Part shown: positions 2,581-14,979 of the stretch, piece after piece
Layout of the letters: each line of letters opens with the position of its first letter
Numbering within the stretch: position 1 is the stretch's first letter
Assembly (NCBI RefSeq): GCF_016278385.1
Contig: NZ_JADQBY010000006.1
Coordinates: forward strand, 1-64,000
Length of the DNA stretch: 64,000 bases
Reading direction: 5' to 3'
Source: Methanolobus sp.
GTDB lineage: Archaea; Halobacteriota; Methanosarcinia; Methanosarcinales; Methanosarcinaceae
Notes under the pieces: model-generated
Databases searched by the model: none
What the model saw: only the letters and a program-made list of their open reading frames with translations
Told to the model about the DNA's origin: nothing
Translations under genes and position numbers: made by a program

Positions 2581-4140
2581 CTATTCTGTTTCGTTTTCAA
2601 AAATATCTTCAAATAACTCTTCTTCAGATATTTCTTTATTTTTCAATAGAGCGAGTTGCTTAGTTTTGTTGAGTCTAATCAATTTTTTGTATTTATTGAT
2701 AAGAAGGTTGTACTTTAAAATATCATCTGTTGATTCAGCTTCGGATTTCTTCTCTTCTGCTTTTTCAAGTGCCAATTCATGATTGAGAATTAACATAGCT
2801 ATTCTATCTTTTTCCTGTTGTTTAAGATCGTTAGAATCAATTATTTGAATTGTTTCTGTATCTCTGAATTGTATTATTGGAAGACATTCATCTGCATAAA
2901 ATTTGATCAATCTTTCTTTCTTAGCTTTATAATAAGCCTTTTTTACCGTTCCCATCTTGTGTCCCATCATGTGATAAACTAATTTCTTATCACTGATATT
3001 TTTTGAGTTCTCTAACAGGTTACCGAAGTATTTTCTAAGATTATGACTACGAATATCTTCCCATTGGAATTCCTTTGTTGTATATCCACAATTTTTAGCT
3101 TTTGTTTTCAAGAGATAATTATATCCTGCAACAGTTATTTGTCTATGTCTTTCATCTCTTTCATCTAAAAATATTTGTTTGATTTCTGATTTAACAAACA
3201 GGTATATATCATCTAACGATTTTCCATTTTCTAGATCAATATCATATCTTTGTTTTTCATATGCAAGCAATGTAGTTTCATTACTAGTTGTTGGTTTTGT
3301 ATTTCTACTTTTAAGGTAGGTATCTATCTCTTTGCAGGCTTCAATGCTAAAGAATGTATAGAAAGGATCAGTATTTTTGTTCTTATTTTTCTCTCTCGTT
3401 TTTATCTCTAACATACAGATTGTTTCTTCTACATATTCTTCATCGACTTTTGTTTTTATTTTTTGTTTCCCATTTTCATATTGAACGATTGTGATATTGA
3501 ACAAGTCGATACCTGCTAATCCAGAAGAAGACTGTGCTAGAATTATTGCCTTCAAAACGCCTGATGAAGAATCAACTATATCACGGATTATTTTTTTATT
3601 CGGTGTCCAGTCATTTTCACCGTCATCAGATTTTTCGTTAGGTAGTAATTTAAAATAATTATTAGGTGTTTCTATACCAAATTCTCTATAAAACTTTCTT
3701 AATCCAGATAATATTGTTTTTAAGGTAGTGGATGAATAATGTTTGATGCCCTCAGTGCCATCAGAATATGAGACCGGATATCCTGCTTCCCGTATGTATT
3801 CGAGATAATTTTCAATTTTGACAATATGATTCATTTCTAGGATATTTTCAGAATCATCATCAAATGCTTCTCTGATCAATTGTTCAGGTAACATTTTGCA
3901 TTCGTAGCAGTATTGAACGACTTCATTAAGATATCTGCTACGAGTATTATCAGAATTCAACCTAGAAAGAAAATATCCAACAACATAATTTTGATGAAGT
4001 GCTTCTCTTGTTAATTCATCATCTTCTGGTTTGTAGTCCGTGTCAGTTGTATTTCTAATCCTGTCGAATATCTCTTTTTTATTGTTTGTAGTAACCAAAA
4101 ATTTGTTATCATTTCTTTTTCTTCTGCTTATTTTTGGCAT
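2581..4140 (-). CDS. tyrosine-recombinase-family integrase
   Basis: About 519 residues from the ATG at 4140, preceded by GGGTGAT as ribosome-binding site. Numbering from the TTG four codons upstream, the C-terminal half shows HNLRKYF (H370, R373), MMGHKMG (H398) and KAYYK (Y407/Y408), which are box-II residues of tyrosine recombinases. At the box-I position the sequence is SSGLAGIDLFNI, with Ala213 where the first catalytic Arg is expected. The N-terminal region (about 55-165) looks like a SAM-like core-binding domain, and the C-terminal tail is highly charged. Its base composition is more AT-rich than the housekeeping genes. It sits between tRNA-Arg and a related tRNA-like fragment, consistent with an integrated element reduced to its integrase. 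Activity is uncertain given the missing Arg. Confidence 0.8.
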   Translation of the reverse strand: MPKISRRKRNDNKFLVTTNNKKEIFDRIRNTTDTDYKPEDDELTREALHQNYVVGYFLSRLNSDNTRSRYLNEVVQYCYECKMLPEQLIREAFDDDSENILEMNHIVKIENYLEYIREAGYPVSYSDGTEGIKHYSSTTLKTILSGLRKFYREFGIETPNNYFKLLPNEKSDDGENDWTPNKKIIRDIVDSSSGVLKAIILAQSSSGLAGIDLFNITIVQYENGKQKIKTKVDEEYVEETICMLEIKTREKNKNKNTDPFYTFFSIEACKEIDTYLKSRNTKPTTSNETTLLAYEKQRYDIDLENGKSLDDIYLFVKSEIKQIFLDERDERHRQITVAGYNYLLKTKAKNCGYTTKEFQWEDIRSHNLRKYFGNLLENSKNISDKKLVYHMMGHKMGTVKKAYYKAKKERLIKFYADECLPIIQFRDTETIQIIDSNDLKQQEKDRIAMLILNHELALEKAEEKKSEAESTDDILKYNLLINKYKKLIRLNKTKQLALLKNKEISEEELFEDIFENETE

Positions 4141-4223
4141 ATAATCACCCAATGCATAACATCAATGCTACTGATTCTGTTTTTAAAATATACATTTTGT
4201 TACACTCAAGGGTGCTCTTAAAA

Positions 4224-4246
4224 GATATCCGCTACACTACAGGTCC
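4224..4246 (-). repeat. tRNA 5'-end-like fragment, candidate att site
   Basis: On the minus strand this reads GGACCTGTAGTGTAGCGGATATC. It matches the 5' end of tRNA-Arg at 2486-2508 at 19 of 23 positions, in the same orientation, but the sequence downstream does not form a tRNA. The two copies flank the integrase gene, as attL/attR would. The 4 mismatches make this a suggestion only. Confidence 0.4.
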
Positions 4247-4383
4247 ATAATTTGAGACTATAATCTTATTCTGCATGTTTCTCATTGAAGATAAATATAA
4301 TGTAAGAATGTAATAATGTCGGACAGGATATTGTTCTAACTCATCCTCCTGTACATTTGGTTAGTTTAGCTGCGAACAATACT

Positions 4384-4427
4384 CTTATATATCACAATTG
4401 TGTATTAGGAGTATTCACGATTGTGAT
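4384..4427 (+). promoter_or_regulatory. TATA box with two operator palindromes upstream of tRNA-Cys
   Basis: A TATA-like CTTATATA (4384-4391) is followed at once by ATCACAATTGTGTA (4391-4404) and TTCACGATTGTGAT (4414-4427), with centres 23 bp apart. Transcription would start near 4412, inside the operator pair and about 25 nt before tRNA-Cys. The same arrangement occurs before moeB. It looks like a repressor site acting on tRNA-Cys and perhaps the following carrier-protein gene. Confidence 0.6.
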
Positions 4428-4438
4428 GAAAAACGACT

Positions 4439-4510
4439 GCCAAGGTGGCGGAGCGGCTACGCAATCGCCTGCAGAGCGATTCTATTCCGGTTCGAATCCG
4501 GACCTTGGCT
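4439..4510 (+). tRNA. tRNA-Cys (GCA)
   Basis: The 72-nt cloverleaf has acceptor GCCAAGG/CCTTGGC with T73, anticodon loop CTGCAGA giving GCA, and T arm CCGG-TTCGAAT-CCGG. No intron. It is preceded by a TATA box overlapped by palindromes shared with sulfur and cofactor genes nearby, which is unusual for a tRNA gene. A 101-codon frame crossing it is not a gene. Confidence 0.93.
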
Positions 4511-8777: not shown

Positions 8778-9710
8778 CTACTTGATATCAAGCATTCTCT
8801 GGATGGCAAGCCTTGCCCTGTATGCTACATCCTCAGGTACCGTTACTCTTGGTGTGAGACTTTCAAGGGACTTGTGCACTTTGTAGAGGTCCGTTCTTTT
8901 CATTGTGATACAGATGGCTTTCTCTGATAGCGGGTAGTATGACTTATCAGGACAGTCCTTTTTCATCCTGTGGATAATGCCTACCTCTGTACCGATGATA
9001 AATTCCTTTTTCTCGCTCCTGCATACGTGTTCTATCATGCCGGATGTTGAATACACATAGTCCGCCAGGTCAACCACTTCTGAACGACATTCAGGGTGAA
9101 CAAGTACATCTGCGTCAGGGTGGAGCTTGCGTGCATTAATCACATCTTCCGGTGTGATCCTGTCGTGGACGAAACAGAACCCTTCCCAGGGCATTACCTT
9201 CTTGTCGGTGAAACGAGCAACATAGCTTCCAAGGTTCCTGTCGGGTACGAAAATCACCTGGTCCTCATCAAGTGACTGAACAACTTTCACAGCATTGGAG
9301 GATGTACAGCATATATCGCTCTCTGCCTTCACTTCGGCTGAGGTGTTCACATAGCATACAACTGCTGCATCAGAGAACCTCTCCTTGAGAACGCGGAGCT
9401 CGCCTGCTGTTATCATCTCAGCCATAGGACAGCTCGCATCTGCTGCTGGCAACAGTACAGTTTTCTCTGGTGAGAGTATGGCTGCTGTCTCCGCCATGAA
9501 ATCCACTCCGCAGAATACTATTAAATCTGCATCCAGATTGGCTGCTTTCCTGGCAAGTTCCAGTGAATCGCCTGTGAAGTCAGCTATGTCCTGCACTTCA
9601 TCTATCTGGTAGTTGTGGGCAAGTATCACTGCATTGTGCTCTTTTTTGAGTTGCAGTATTTCTTTTTTGATTTTTTTTGTATCGAGTGCTGTTTTTTCAA
9701 TATAGGTCAT
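8778..9710 (-). CDS. nadA: quinolinate synthase NadA
   Basis: The 310-residue [4Fe-4S] enzyme condenses iminoaspartate with dihydroxyacetone phosphate in NAD synthesis. AHNYQ near the N terminus, DFTGDSL and HPEC are family blocks; C94 (ASCPMAE), C179 (GFCFVH) and C267 are the likely cluster ligands. It stands alone here, without nadB or nadC. A copy of the CACAATTGTG-type palindrome lies 52 nt upstream of its start, tying it to the sulfur genes, which makes sense for an Fe-S enzyme. Confidence 0.95.
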   Translation of the reverse strand: MTYIEKTALDTKKIKKEILQLKKEHNAVILAHNYQIDEVQDIADFTGDSLELARKAANLDADLIVFCGVDFMAETAAILSPEKTVLLPAADASCPMAEMITAGELRVLKERFSDAAVVCYVNTSAEVKAESDICCTSSNAVKVVQSLDEDQVIFVPDRNLGSYVARFTDKKVMPWEGFCFVHDRITPEDVINARKLHPDADVLVHPECRSEVVDLADYVYSTSGMIEHVCRSEKKEFIIGTEVGIIHRMKKDCPDKSYYPLSEKAICITMKRTDLYKVHKSLESLTPRVTVPEDVAYRARLAIQRMLDIK

Positions 9711-9761
9711 GAATAATACCTTTATTATTTTTTAATCATAGGCTGCATTTATATCCTGATA

Positions 9762-9775
9762 TTCACAATTGTTAA
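9762..9775 (-). promoter_or_regulatory. operator-like palindrome upstream of nadA
   Basis: TTCACAATTGTTAA, identical over 14 bases to the copy behind the moeB TATA box. It lies just upstream of a TATA-like GATATAAATG on the minus strand (about 9744-9753). Here the site precedes rather than follows the TATA box, so it could act differently from the other copies. Confidence 0.55.
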
Positions 9776-9987
9776 TTACATTTTTTACTATATACTTATT
9801 TCTCATTTTTTTTAATAAAGCAAATTGTTATGACTCTCTTTCTAAAATTTGAGTTATGAAATATTGTTATATCATCAGGTTTTTTAATAATCAGAGATAT
9901 TTTTAATAGTGACTTTATATAATTATGTTACGTAATTAAACTTGCATTAATGGTGGTGTAGGTATAGACGGAAATCGGTTACAGGTA

Positions 9988-10605
9988 TTGGAATTTAAAG
10001 AAGCACTTCTCTCCCTGAACAGAGTTGCTGCGAAGAATCAGATTACCCGGGAATTCACAGGTGATAATGCCTTTGAACTGATTACTAAATTCATTACACC
10101 AGTTCTTGAAAGCATTGGTGAGATGTGGACACGTGGTGAAATTGCATTGTCACAGGAATACATGGCAAGTAAGATATGTGAAGAAATTGTAGAAAGCATC
10201 CTCCCTCTTGAAAGCCCGGTCCGCAAAAACATGCCCATGATTGGCATTACAACCCTTGGGGATGAACATATGCTTGGAAAGCGAATTGTTGCTTCATTCC
10301 TGAAAGCCAATGGCTTCAATATATTTGATTACGGCAACATGGGCCCTGAAATAGTTGCCCAAAAAGTCAGGGAAGATAGTGTAGAGGTCCTTATGGCTTC
10401 CACACTAATGCTCAATCTTGCGTTTGAGGTCAAAAAACTAAGGTCCATTTTTGAGCGTGAAGGTATCAAGACCAAAATAATAGTGGGTGGTGCACCTTTT
10501 TTGTTTGACAGTGATCTCTGGAAGGAAGTTGGTGCTGATGCTATGGCAGTTGATGCCATGGAATCTGTTGACAAAATACATGAGGTTCTGGGGGTATCCA
10601 CATGA
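9988..10605 (+). CDS. MtaC-like corrinoid (B12-binding) protein
   Basis: The 205-residue protein has the two-part layout of methyltransferase corrinoid proteins: a helical cap domain (about 1-80) with GEMWTRGEIALSQEYMAS, then a Rossmann-like B12 domain. D92-E-H94-M-L-G97 is the DxHxxG cobalt-ligand motif. In methylotrophic methanogens such proteins carry a methyl group between a substrate methyltransferase and an MtaA-type enzyme. The start is TTG; no ATG or GTG is available in frame. A TATA-like TTTATATA lies at about 9913-9920. Its stop overlaps the next start (ATGA), so it is tightly coupled to the UroD-family gene. No MtaB-type partner is adjacent. Confidence 0.88.
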   Translation: MEFKEALLSLNRVAAKNQITREFTGDNAFELITKFITPVLESIGEMWTRGEIALSQEYMASKICEEIVESILPLESPVRKNMPMIGITTLGDEHMLGKRIVASFLKANGFNIFDYGNMGPEIVAQKVREDSVEVLMASTLMLNLAFEVKKLRSIFEREGIKTKIIVGGAPFLFDSDLWKEVGADAMAVDAMESVDKIHEVLGVST

Positions 10606-11639
10606 TTCGTGATGAAATGACTCCCATGGAAAGAGTTCTCACGACATTGGGACACCAGGAACCAGATCGTGTCCCGCTTTTCCTGTTACTGACAACACAG
10701 GGTTCCAGGGAATTCAACGTTTCGATAGAGAAATATTTCTCAAAGCCTGAAATGGTTGCGGAAGCCCAGATAAGAATGCAGCAGAAATATGGCCATGATT
10801 GCTACTATCCTTTTTATTATGCTTCTCTTGAAGTTGAAGCATGGGGCAATGAGTCTATTTTCTATTATGATGCACCCCCGAATTCCGGAAGACCTGTGAT
10901 TCATAATTTTGAAGATATTTCTTCCATGGAAGCACCAGATGTGTGTGAATCCCCGCAACTGCAGAACGTTCTGAAGACTACAAAACTCCTCAAAAAGCAT
11001 GCAGGAGGGGATGTGCCCATAATCGGGGTAGTTATGTCTCCATTTGCATTACCAACTATGCAGATGGGTTTTGAAAAGTATTTAGATTTGATATATGAGG
11101 AACCTGATATGTTTAAGGAACTGATGAGAATCAATGAAGAATTCTGTATCCAGTGGGCAAATGCTCAGATTGAGTCCGGAGCAACTGCTATTTGCTATTT
11201 TGATCCTGTATCTTCGTCAACAATTATTCCTCCTGAGTTATATCGGAAGACCGGTTTTAAAGTTGCCAGACGAACGCTTTCCAGAATAAATGGTCCTACT
11301 GCAACCCACATGGCTTCAGGCAGGTGCCTGCCCATAATTAATGATATTGTAGAAACAGGGACTGCCGTAGTCTGCACAAGTGTGCTGGAAGACCTTGCAG
11401 AGATGAAAGCTGCATGCAAAAACAAAATATCAGTACTTGGTAATCTGAATGGTATAGAGATGAGGAACTGGTCACGGCAGGAAACTGAAGATAAAGTAAA
11501 AGACGCAATTCAGAAGGCAGCTAGTGGAGGAGGCTATATTCTTTCCGATAACCATGGGGAAATTCCATACCCTGTTCCTTCAGAAGTTCTAAAGAATATT
11601 TCAGAATCTGTAAACAAATGGGGTCAATATCCCAGGTGA
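10602..11639 (+). CDS. UroD/MtaA-family methyltransferase homologue lacking zinc cysteines
   Basis: The 345-residue protein belongs to the uroporphyrinogen decarboxylase superfamily, whose MtaA/MtbA/CmuA members move a methyl group from a corrinoid protein to coenzyme M. TPMERVL at the N terminus, the PIIGVV strand and ETGT...DLAEMKA are recognisable. MtaA-type enzymes bind zinc through an HxC motif and a later Cys. Here the first site reads H236-M-A238 and the later one N-H318-G, so both cysteines are replaced. It may be a methyltransferase with altered metal binding or a non-catalytic reader of the corrinoid protein. It overlaps the corrinoid gene by 4 nt and precedes the kinase gene. Confidence 0.82.
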   Translation: MIRDEMTPMERVLTTLGHQEPDRVPLFLLLTTQGSREFNVSIEKYFSKPEMVAEAQIRMQQKYGHDCYYPFYYASLEVEAWGNESIFYYDAPPNSGRPVIHNFEDISSMEAPDVCESPQLQNVLKTTKLLKKHAGGDVPIIGVVMSPFALPTMQMGFEKYLDLIYEEPDMFKELMRINEEFCIQWANAQIESGATAICYFDPVSSSTIIPPELYRKTGFKVARRTLSRINGPTATHMASGRCLPIINDIVETGTAVVCTSVLEDLAEMKAACKNKISVLGNLNGIEMRNWSRQETEDKVKDAIQKAASGGGYILSDNHGEIPYPVPSEVLKNISESVNKWGQYPR

Positions 11640-11644
11640 ATTCC

Positions 11645-13327
11645 ATGTTTTATGATCACTATCTCCTTGTACCTGAATTTCTCCGAAAGGAAATTGAACA
11701 CGTGATTTCCAACGATATCCGACTTAAAGGAATTAGATCTGGATATTTTAATTCTGCACAGGATTTCAGAAATCCGGAAATTCTTTTCAATATTATAAGG
11801 GAATTAAAATGTGATAATGATATATTGCTCCTGTGTGACAATGAATGTTCTGAAATATCCATTCCGGATGAATACTCAGGCTCAGTCAAAATAAAAAGGG
11901 TAGAAAGTATATATGTTCTCTTTGCAGAGAGAAGAATATTGCAGAGTCATGAAGTTGGTAATAATTTTGTTATAGTTCCAGGATGGCTCGAAAAATGGCA
12001 GTATAACTTGAATTCTGCAGACATGTATAAGAAGGATTCGGATGCTTCATTTTCACATTTATATGATTCGATTCTGATACTGGATACGGGTATTCATCCG
12101 GACTTTTTGGCAAAGGCAGAAGAGTTTTCCCAATTTACAGGTGTTCCATTTAACGTCCTTGATGTTGGTATGGAACATTTCAAACTTGCTTTTGATAATC
12201 TGGTAATTCAATGGAATATTGAATTGAAACAAAACCAGTTGAAGGTATGCAACAGGAAGGCGGCTTCATATGCGATGTCAATTGATTTTATTAAAACAAT
12301 TGCTGACCTTACTGATGAATCAATTGCAGTTGAATCTATTTGTAAGCTATTCAGTACAATGTTTGCCCCAAAGAATGTAATTTACTATTCTTTTTATGAA
12401 GATAGGATGGAACTCAAACATTGTAAGTTATCTGGCACCGACCAGAAAGCCATAATGAAACTGAAGGATTCCGGTGCAAATTACTTAGTGTTTGATACTG
12501 AAGATGGTTTCGCAATAAAAATATCAACAACAGAGAATCTTCTTGGTATAATTGAGATACATGATGTTGCTTTTCCTGAATATCTGAATGAATACTTAAG
12601 TGCCGGATATGATCTTGCAAAAGCTGCAGGACTTGGAATTTCTAATATAAGGCGTAATCATGAAATTTTTAAGTCCAGGGAGGAGCAGGTAAAGCTAACA
12701 GAAATGCTTCGTACCACAAATCGTATTCTAAGGCATGATATTGCAAATAATCTTCAAGTTGTCACCGGGGCGCTGGATCTTCTTGAAGAGAACAAGGATG
12801 AAAAATATATTTCTATGATAAGAAAGGCCGCAATAAAAAGTATTTCACTGATTCAGAATGTACAGGAAATCGATTATTTCTCTATTGGTGATGTTGAGTT
12901 AGAGCTTTTAAACGTCAAGAATCTGCTGGATGATGTCATAAACAGGTATTCAATTAAATTCAATGTCAACGGCAATTGTATCGTTATGGGGGACAAAGCT
13001 CTGTTCTCTGTATTCGATAATATTGTTGGCAATGCTATTTCACATGGGAATGCTAGCATGATTGACATCTCAATAATGAGTCATAATGGTAAATGCGAAA
13101 TTTCGATTGCTGATAATGGAACAGGTATCCCGGATGAAGTAAAACCCAGAGTTTTTGATGAAGGATACAAGTATGGAAATACGGGTCATACTGGCTTTGG
13201 ACTCTATATTGCCAAAAGAACAGTCGAACGTTGTAATGGCTCCATACGTGTTGAGGATAATTATCCTGCGGGCGCGAAATTCATCATAGAATTAGCTGTT
13301 GCACAGGTGAATGATCATATTTTATAA
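11645..13327 (+). CDS. soluble histidine kinase with DUF1638-like sensor domain
   Basis: About 560 residues from the ATG at 11645, which has AGGTGA 6 nt upstream and begins 6 nt after the methyltransferase stop. Residues 1-190 resemble DUF1638, seen in the SHLYDSILILDTG...AKAEEF...GVPFNVLDVG part. A GAF-like segment spans about 200-335. H364 in ILRHDIANN is the phosphoacceptor, and the ATPase domain has ADNGTGIP and GHTGFGLYIAKR. No membrane segment is visible, so it should act in the cytoplasm. DUF1638 proteins are commonly linked to corrinoid methyltransferases in methanogens. The inference is a kinase that reads the state of the corrinoid/UroD pair. No response regulator is nearby. Confidence 0.8.
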   Translation: MFYDHYLLVPEFLRKEIEHVISNDIRLKGIRSGYFNSAQDFRNPEILFNIIRELKCDNDILLLCDNECSEISIPDEYSGSVKIKRVESIYVLFAERRILQSHEVGNNFVIVPGWLEKWQYNLNSADMYKKDSDASFSHLYDSILILDTGIHPDFLAKAEEFSQFTGVPFNVLDVGMEHFKLAFDNLVIQWNIELKQNQLKVCNRKAASYAMSIDFIKTIADLTDESIAVESICKLFSTMFAPKNVIYYSFYEDRMELKHCKLSGTDQKAIMKLKDSGANYLVFDTEDGFAIKISTTENLLGIIEIHDVAFPEYLNEYLSAGYDLAKAAGLGISNIRRNHEIFKSREEQVKLTEMLRTTNRILRHDIANNLQVVTGALDLLEENKDEKYISMIRKAAIKSISLIQNVQEIDYFSIGDVELELLNVKNLLDDVINRYSIKFNVNGNCIVMGDKALFSVFDNIVGNAISHGNASMIDISIMSHNGKCEISIADNGTGIPDEVKPRVFDEGYKYGNTGHTGFGLYIAKRTVERCNGSIRVEDNYPAGAKFIIELAVAQVNDHIL

Positions 13328-13516: not shown

Positions 13517-14979
13517 ATGGCTTTCAAAGATTCATATGAAAAATATTCAGATACTTTGATCATGTTTCTTATTCTGGTAGGTCTGTACTTCGTAAGTCTG
13601 GCGAGTTTTCTCCTTTTCCACAGCATTGTTGAGGTAGTCAGTGTCGTAATCTTATCTGCTGTTTTTCTAATTGCCTGGAACTCCAGGTATTACCTGAAGA
13701 ATTCATACCTTCTTTTCCTTGGAATAAGTTTTTTTTTTGTGGCAGTTATTGATTTTTACACATAATCAGCTATAAAGGAATGGGTATTTTTCCTGATAAT
13801 GGATCGAATCTGCCTACTCAGTTATGGATAGCTGCAAGGTATCTGCAAAGTATTTCCCTTTTGATAGCTCCTTTTATGCTGAGAAAAGAACTTAATGTGC
13901 ATAAAGTTTTTTCAATATATTTTGTATTTACCTTTTTAATTCTTGCATCGATTTTCTTGGGCTATTTTCCTGATTGTTTAATTGAAGGCAGTGGCCTGAC
14001 ACAGTTTAAAATAATAAGTGAGTACTTTATTTCCCTGATTCTGTTAGCTTCGCTTTTCATGCTTCATAAGCATAAAGAAGAATTCAATTCCGATGTTTAT
14101 ATGTTGCTTTCAGGTGTCATTATCTTCACAATATTTGCAGAACTATCATTCACCTTTTACATAGATGTCTATGGTTTTTCAAATCTAGTAGGCCACTATT
14201 TTAAATTACTTTCATTTTACTTTATATACAAGGCTATAGTCGTTACAAGTCTTAAAAGGCCGTATGATCTTCTTTATAGGGAATTGAAGATGAGGGAATA
14301 TGATCTTGTAAAGAAAAAAGAATCACAGGAACATTTACTGGAAACACTGGGTCTTGTAAATAAAATACTTCGTCACGATATCCTGAATGATTTGAACATT
14401 ATTATCCTTTCAGTCGGTAATCTCAAGGAGAGGATGGATGAATGGGAACTCGACATATCTGAAAAGGCTGTGCAACATAGCCTTAAGATAATTAATGAAA
14501 TGAAGGACTTTGAATCACTAATGTATGTCCGGGAACTGAAAATAATCGATCTTCATCAGCTTGTGCTCGAAGTGTCACAGGAGTTCCCCATTACTGTGAA
14601 TGTCAATGGAAATTGTTCTATTAAAGCCGATAGCGGCCTTCATTCGGTTATTGGCAACATTGTCCAGAATGCAATAGTCCATGGCAAGGCTGATGCAGTG
14701 GATATCTTCATGGAAGAGAAAAAGGGTTTTTGTGAGCTGAGGATAGCAGATAATGGTATTGGTATCCCTGAAATAATAAAAGGACGTGTGTTCGATGAGG
14801 GGTTCAAATATGGTGAATCCGGGCATACGGGCATCGGCCTGTATATTGCAAAAAGAATAGTTGAAAGATATGGGGATATATCCCTGGAAGATAATTTTCC
14901 ATCTGGCACAATCTTTATACTAAGATTTTGTAGCAACGATATAGTAGATGAGAACAAAGAAGAAATGACCAATGTCTGA
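13517..14979 (+). pseudogene. MASE3 membrane histidine kinase, split by a one-base frameshift
   Basis: Two consecutive frames form one kinase. The first (13517-13765) has membrane segments and ends at VAVIDFYT; the second (from 13780) starts inside GMGIFPDNGS. Adding one T to the T5 run at 13753-13757 restores DFLHIISYKGMGIF, the typical core of the MASE3 sensor domain. The repaired protein has a multi-helix MASE3 domain, then H199 of the second frame (KILRHDILND) and an ATPase domain (ADNGIGIP, GHTGIGLYIAKR) closely similar to that of the kinase upstream. It could be a real lesion, a contingency locus or a sequencing error. A 10-T run lies at 13729-13738. Confidence 0.8.

Follow-up and report, generated by a model that had tools for sequence, protein, structure and literature searches.

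Three adjacent genes in Methanolobus sp. raise the question whether a corrinoid protein and a methyltransferase-like partner serve energy metabolism or signalling. In the window (the whole stretch analysed here: 64,000 nucleotides, positions 1 to 64,000 of contig NZ_JADQBY010000006.1, assembly GCF_016278385.1), genes for a corrinoid-binding protein, a UroD-family protein and a soluble sensor histidine kinase follow one another between positions 9988 and 13327. The original prediction, made from the sequence of the locus, was that the corrinoid/UroD pair is the front end of a sensor rather than an energy-yielding methyltransferase. The comparative data gathered here support this strongly, because the input is constant while the outputs vary, the UroD protein and the sensor co-occur exactly, the metal ligands of the UroD protein are altered, and some hosts appear to do without an activase. 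We therefore consider it very probable that the trio is a signalling module, and its sequence features are best read as those of a three-protein corrinoid sensory module, not of an energy-yielding methyltransferase.

A constant gene set with variable outputs

Relatives were collected by scanning GTDB genomes with the UroD alignment, which gave 297 encoded relatives from which the best 80 loci were fetched, and by profile searches of 60 archaeal relatives. The trio was present in 17 of these 60 archaea and in about 70 bacterial genomes, spread over about a dozen phyla. Those represented among the best 80 of the 297 were Thermodesulfobacteriota, Nitrospirota, Chloroflexota, Bacteroidota, Ignavibacteriota, Pseudomonadota, Myxococcota, Bacillota, Rifleibacteriota, SAR324 and Aminicenantes, plus two archaeal groups. 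Since most carriers found are bacteria, the methanogen methyl-transfer setting in which the locus had originally been placed is too narrow, and a methanogen-only feature was rejected. Conservation of the gene order likewise extends far beyond the Methanosarcinales: in 69 of the 71 loci with enough flanking sequence, the corrinoid gene lies immediately upstream of uroD and the gene for a GAF-like sensor downstream. The two exceptions are informative in that both keep the gene set; the corrinoid gene of Electrothrix (L123) has been relocated downstream of uroD, and in Halobeggiatoa (L066) the DUF1638-GAF hybrid kinase is found on another contig. A DUF1638 domain is also present in 56 of the 69 ordered loci. 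Because the remaining 13 third genes are without it, the predicted universal receiver element is the GAF-like domain and not DUF1638.

The outputs attached to this input fall into four types, namely archaeal kinases, hybrid kinases, GGDEF diguanylate cyclases and short tails. Pfam searches of 56 third genes recovered HATPase domains in 33, GGDEF domains in nine, receivers in eight and PAS domains in four; the GGDEF motifs were intact in all nine cases, and the H-box is kept in the archaeal kinases. Sensory input modules are usually recognised by this combination of a single front end with several unrelated outputs, and we regard the trio as such a module because its input stays constant while its outputs vary. 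The short third proteins (about 230-280 amino acids; loci L061, L065, L068, L070, L073, L075, L094, L100, L116 and L122) consist of a GAF-like domain only, followed by a conserved PICxxCKxIRDDxGYW...CxxC tail that probably binds zinc. At another locus (L104, 8966-12096) two tandem sensors with the same GAF-like domain stand behind one corrinoid-UroD pair, and one input may therefore feed two outputs.

The company kept by the UroD protein and the sensor was equally strict. Among the archaea both were present in the identical 17 of 60 genomes and neither was present in the other 43 (Fisher p about 3e-15, a value that ignores phylogeny), and copy number matched in a genome (G003) with two UroD proteins and two sensors. 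The class of Desulfonema magnum holds the UroD protein in 12 of 147 genomes, with the GAF sensor in 11 of these 12 and in none of the other 135; in the twelfth, a contig end cuts the locus and the start of DUF1638 is visible. Both proteins were encoded in all 23 further host genomes, usually as single copies; one of these genomes had two uroD genes and, next to them, two sensors. Across bacteria, the distances of the three proteins correlated with r 0.56-0.63, with phylogeny not removed from these values.

The genes next to the trio are also mostly those of signal transduction. Of 84 same-strand trio neighbours, 37 encoded receiver domains and 32 kinases; the corresponding numbers among 60 control genes taken from the same contigs were 7 and 5, the controls being of a somewhat different size range from the tested neighbours. 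Neither a second methyltransferase nor an activase (RACo/RamA) was found among the 25 neighbour families listed as most frequent. In addition, a RamA-type activase was not found in 10 of the 23 host genomes, which are drafts, and this argues against catalytic methylotrophy. An Rfam search of ten bacterial loci for riboswitches found none.

Within Methanolobus, a dozen congeners have a full-length orthologue of the kinase as part of the same trio, and the kinase gene is interrupted in a thirteenth. In one genome (L038; G002:C1:2572544-2574428) it is broken by a stop-rich stretch of ~190 nucleotides (nt) between the DUF1638 and GAF domains. Other genera of the family have more distant trios, whose genomic surroundings differ, and profile searches did not find the trio in the surveyed relative G036. 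Carriers include sulphur oxidisers, methanotrophs and Bacteroidota, mostly with one module per genome, and the named strains Methanolobus profundi, M. psychrotolerans and Desulfonema magnum. In a quick tree, the Methanosarcinaceae form one group amid bacterial branches and a Methanomicrobiales sequence stands elsewhere, a pattern that suggests spread of the trio by horizontal transfer.

An altered but strictly conserved site in the UroD-family protein

The UroD-family protein (10602..11639, plus strand, 345 amino acids) has an MtaA/CmuA-like fold. It matches PF01208 with an E value of 3.7e-58, and the best structural match of its model is MtaA (4ay7/4ay8, TM 0.82-0.84), which places it in the UroD/TIM-barrel fold. 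It stays far below the curated NCBIfam cut-offs (TIGR01463, 142.6 against 235.4 bits; MtaA, 102 against 400; MtbA, 86 against 600), it is not the uroporphyrinogen decarboxylase HemE by TIGR01464 (71.1 against 302.95 bits), and very long branches part the UroD proteins of the trio from MtaA/MtbA in the quick tree. Both zinc-binding cysteines of MtaA (HxC...C) are replaced, by A238 in 88 of 89 relatives and by H318 in 89 of 89; H236 is kept in 88 of 89, and D316-N317-H318-G319-E320 is nearly invariant. The window protein accordingly reads H236-x-A238-S-G and D316-N-H318-G-E320 (HxASG...DNHGE) in place of HxC...C. As a positive control, the three MtaA/MtbA-type coenzyme M (CoM) methyltransferases of the same Methanolobus genome retain HxC...C.

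A degenerate active site was considered and rejected, since the site is altered yet strictly conserved; the pattern thus points to strong selection for a different chemistry or a binding role, and not to decay. The UroD-superfamily enzyme CdmB functions without zinc (PMC13222342), so that lack of the MtaA zinc site alone is no proof against methyl transfer. For a related reason we set aside one argument of the original prediction, which had drawn on the lack of an adjacent MtaB-type substrate enzyme: a missing MtaB proves nothing, because substrate:corrinoid methyltransferases are known within the UroD superfamily itself (CdmB, MtoB, OdmB and VdmB; PMC13222342).

The corrinoid protein

The corrinoid-binding protein (9988..10605, plus strand, 205 amino acids) comprises a four-helix cap (B12-binding_2, E 3.5e-9 in Pfam) and a B12-binding domain (E 4.6e-12). 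The base-off motif D92-x-H94-x-x-G97 of the window protein is kept as DxHxxG in 81 of 81 relatives, and this motif, together with the cap and Rossmann domains, makes the protein a member of the B12-binding superfamily. It scores below the curated cut-offs of the models for methylamine and methanol corrinoid proteins (TIGR02370, 70.5 against 215.3 bits; MtbC, 61.8 against 350; MtaC, 46.2 against 450). A tandem second corrinoid gene in G003:C2 (L037, about 12542-13144) has lost the cobalt-ligating histidine (LGDEF in place of LGDEH), and its product may be a corrinoid-free partner or regulator.

The sensor kinase

The soluble sensor histidine kinase (11645..13327, plus strand) has 560 amino acids counted from a conserved methionine. 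Its N-terminal 190 residues (11645..12214) had been said to resemble DUF1638, which a profile search bore out: PF07796 scores 31.1 bits on the whole protein and 33.9 bits (E 3.5e-8) on the N-terminal 194 residues, with a cut-off of 27. The Pfam alignment covers residues 112-189 only, and a model built from the relatives spans residues 1-186; conserved in this domain are Cys68, GW (113-114) and DTG (147-149). An AlphaFold2 model computed with 49 aligned sequences shows the DUF1638 region as one well-folded domain and the sensor region as two confident domains with a mean pLDDT of 91.5. The second of these, overlooked in the original prediction and common to nearly every third gene, has a GAF fold (about residues 207-335; 12263..12649), its Foldseek matches being the KdpD GAF domain 4y2f (TMt 0.75) and NLH1 4g3k_B (TMt 0.75). 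The domain was also traced with a hidden Markov model (HMM) across the loci. The window kinase has no Pfam GAF match, and a search for solved structures resembling the sensor by sequence found nothing meaningful.

The kinase portion has all the features of a histidine kinase intact. The H-box LRHDIAN lies at 12728..12748, with the codon of the phospho-acceptor His364 at 12734-12736, and the HATPase_c catalytic domain (12995..13300; PF02518, E 2.6e-20) contains the N, G1 and G2 boxes. The lack of an adjacent response regulator had been taken to mean an unusual output. This was mistaken, as an orphan kinase is normal in Methanosarcina, given that only 7 of the 53 kinases of M. acetivorans lie in operons with regulators (PMC11784639).

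Cys68 is kept in 45 of 49 sensors and aligns with the cysteine of the YGLCG motif in free-standing DUF1638 proteins. One of these is needed, together with a RamA-like protein, for methionine synthesis in Phaeobacter, where genetic data led to a proposed role in B12 reactivation (PMC5764234). We infer that the DUF1638 domain of the sensor contacts the corrinoid protein. Two loci of one methanotroph genome (Methylobacter, G075) contain free-standing forms. At one (L132, contig C94, 5782-8839), a RACo-type activase, a corrinoid protein and DUF1638 are encoded in a row. The other (L133, contig C64, 2493-11001) holds a corrinoid protein, a divergent UroD protein (YxCGG, no H318), a free-standing DUF1638 protein and a hybrid histidine kinase, with a gene for a receiver-HD-domain (HD-GYP-like) protein upstream of the operon. 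DUF1638 can therefore also stand alone as a protein within a signalling cluster of this kind, and the locus suggests a wider family of such modules.

Proposed mechanism and alternative explanations

The operon, the domains, the kinase motifs, the cofactor and pocket residues, the gene set, the co-occurrence and the constant input with its variable outputs can all be read from the sequence and comparative data, and from these we propose how the module might work. The UroD protein would act on the corrinoid, most likely as a catalyst that exchanges a methyl group, or a one-carbon unit like it, between cobalt and a small molecule. The corrinoid protein would thereby be left methylated, as Co(I) or as Co(II), and this state would be read when the protein docks onto the DUF1638-GAF sensor, and the GAF domain would relay the change along signalling helices to the attached output, which would be autophosphorylation of His364 in the window kinase and a hybrid kinase or diguanylate cyclase elsewhere. 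That the corrinoid state carries the signal and is set by the UroD protein seems to us rather probable, and a methyl compound is our leading guess, and only that, for the ultimate ligand. The complete proposal is a general enzyme-coupled corrinoid sensor of archaea and about a dozen bacterial phyla, in which a dedicated methyltransferase-like enzyme charges or discharges the corrinoid protein for signalling alone, and the organometallic state so produced is converted by a DUF1638-GAF receptor into phosphorylation or cyclic-di-GMP to report a methylated compound or methyl-group status; on this our judgement is evenly balanced. Several observations weigh against the mechanism proposed above. A RamA-type activase is present in 13 of the 23 hosts, and incompleteness of metagenome-assembled genomes weakens every claim of absence. 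DUF1638 is lost in the short bacterial forms and truncated in an archaeal one (G033), and hence cannot be the essential reader. Finally, the strict conservation of the UroD pocket would also be possible with an ordinary catalytic role on some substrate.

This last point leads to a catabolic explanation, in which the UroD protein is a substrate:corrinoid methyltransferase for some methyl compound and the corrinoid protein its carrier, the third protein merely regulates expression of the pathway, and CoM transfer and reactivation are provided in trans. Zinc-free substrate methyltransferases of the UroD superfamily exist, as CdmB shows (PMC13222342), the three MtaA/MtbA-type proteins of the Methanolobus genome could finish the transfer, and methyltransferase-associated sensor kinases (RdmS, MsmS) are known in Methanosarcina (cited in PMC11619418). 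We nevertheless find this explanation unlikely: the frequent neighbours are signalling genes without a second methyltransferase or activase among them, 10 of 23 hosts appear to be without a RamA-type activase, the hosts include sulphur oxidisers, methanotrophs and Bacteroidota with mostly one module per genome, and strict one-to-one company in a dozen phyla with a changing output type would be unexpected for a mere regulator.

Sensing of another kind is conceivable in two forms. The module could sense redox state or oxygen, with the corrinoid cycling between Co(I) and Co(II), the sensor reading that state, and the cobalt shielded by the UroD protein in the role of a structural chaperone or dead enzyme. 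The genetic tie of DUF1638 to reactivation of Co(II) corrinoid (PMC5764234) and the retention of Cys68 speak for such a role, as does the occurrence of many carriers at oxic-anoxic boundaries, a habitat pattern taken from organism titles and not tested statistically; the UroD pocket residues, which rank with the best-conserved positions anywhere in the three proteins, are not those of a dead scaffold, and we hold this form to be distinctly improbable. The corrinoid protein could also be a photoreceptor, as in CarH and the photocobilins, one of which likewise drives a diguanylate cyclase (PMC10979010). The E values of its cap are indeed lower against CarH (1.6e-4 to 5e-4) than against the corrinoid proteins of methyltransferases (about 1), and the residue at the position of the CarH tryptophan is an invariant W47. 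The published light signature requires GxxW plus EH (PMC11796333), and when it was tried on the corrinoid protein, GxxW was found in 81 of 81 relatives and EH was absent, an invariant Tyr58 (81 of 81) replacing the histidine and position 57 being mostly Val. As many carriers are moreover sediment or groundwater anaerobes, and a light sensor would leave the UroD protein without a role, we give this form very little credence. We thus retain enzyme-coupled corrinoid sensing as the preferred explanation.

Comparison with known systems

Each part of the trio has relatives in described systems. MtaA/MtbA with MtaC/MtbC share the UroD fold and a partner corrinoid protein with DxHxxG, but have HxC...C zinc ligands where the UroD protein of the trio has HxA...H. 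The type 1 mlp clusters (Kountz and Balskus, PMC10418091) likewise combine an MtaA-like protein with a corrinoid protein outside methanogenesis; they hold several Mlps and a Ram-type activase, whereas the trio has a single UroD protein, a signalling protein and no activase. In the Cdm and Mto/Odm systems, a UroD-superfamily enzyme with its own corrinoid protein is joined by an activating enzyme and a further methyltransferase, the whole supporting growth, and neither of these two components is a frequent neighbour of the trio.

On the signalling side, MsmS and RdmS of Methanosarcina are kinases with GAF domains tied to corrinoid methyl transfer. Heme-binding GAF domains are cited for two M. 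acetivorans kinases, and sensing via heme or thiols has been proposed for MsmS and RdmS (PMC11619418). MsmS/RdmS (MA_type 2) are without an H-box (PMC11784639), unlike the window kinase with its LRHDIAN and its DUF1638 domain. CarH, AerR and photocobilin resemble the trio in using a B12-binding domain for signalling, in a similar cap with an invariant tryptophan and in diguanylate cyclase outputs. The trio differs in that it divides receptor and output between two proteins, always includes an enzyme-like UroD partner and has no EH motif. The free-standing DUF1638 protein that works with a RamA-like activase in the split methionine synthase of Phaeobacter (PMC5764234) shares the domain by homology, including its conserved Cys and W/DTG features; in the trio, the domain is part of a fusion with GAF and output domains, and the cluster lacks an activase.

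The known functions of B12 proteins are those of enzyme, carrier and light sensor. If our reading is true, corrinoids would have one more use, with a corrinoid protein and a dedicated methyltransferase-like enzyme forming the input of a signalling system. To our knowledge this three-protein corrinoid input has no counterpart, and we found no account of the module in the open-access literature, an account in a subscription journal being possible. The output enzymes are ordinary (two-component and c-di-GMP signalling) and the novelty is the corrinoid input; if this is only a new input to familiar outputs, the module is more fairly classed as a variant than as wholly new. Some members of the DUF1638 family, and a large UroD subfamily whose members are likely to be annotated as methyltransferases, would gain a role open to testing, and the occurrence of the module in named strains makes it testable now. 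A caution also follows, in that MtaA-like genes in sediment bacteria should not be read as evidence of methylotrophy.

The operon in the window and its surroundings

The three genes form one coupled operon on the plus strand. All were originally described, in this order, as overlapping or abutting, and all are present, in one operon; the overlap of the kinase gene with uroD probably does not exist. The first ATG had put the kinase start at 11618. A methionine at 11645 (MFYDHY), 5 nt past the UroD stop, is common to the relatives and is preceded by a ribosome-binding-like AGGTGA (11634..11639, plus strand) that spans the UroD stop codon, for which reasons 11645 is probably the real start. The stop of the corrinoid gene and the start of uroD do overlap, in an ATGA at 10602..10605 (plus strand) consistent with translational coupling, and this 4-nt overlap is also present in most relatives. 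The start of the corrinoid gene as called is a TTG, and its exact position is uncertain. Upstream, TTTATATA at 9914..9921 (plus strand) is a candidate archaeal TATA-like element, with a single occurrence within 9701-10000 in a sequence search.

The trio is adjoined by a gene for a MASE3 membrane histidine kinase (13517-14979), which is split in two frames with a T-run near 13745-13765; it is a single frame in a relative (G004), which leaves a sequencing error or a frameshift of recent origin to account for the split. This kinase was rejected as a fourth component, as it is found without the trio (L044, L045) and the trio without it (L028, L032, L036, L037). Farther upstream in the window (2581-4510), a 523-amino-acid tyrosine-recombinase-like open reading frame adjoins a tRNA-Cys gene and looks like a candidate integration site.

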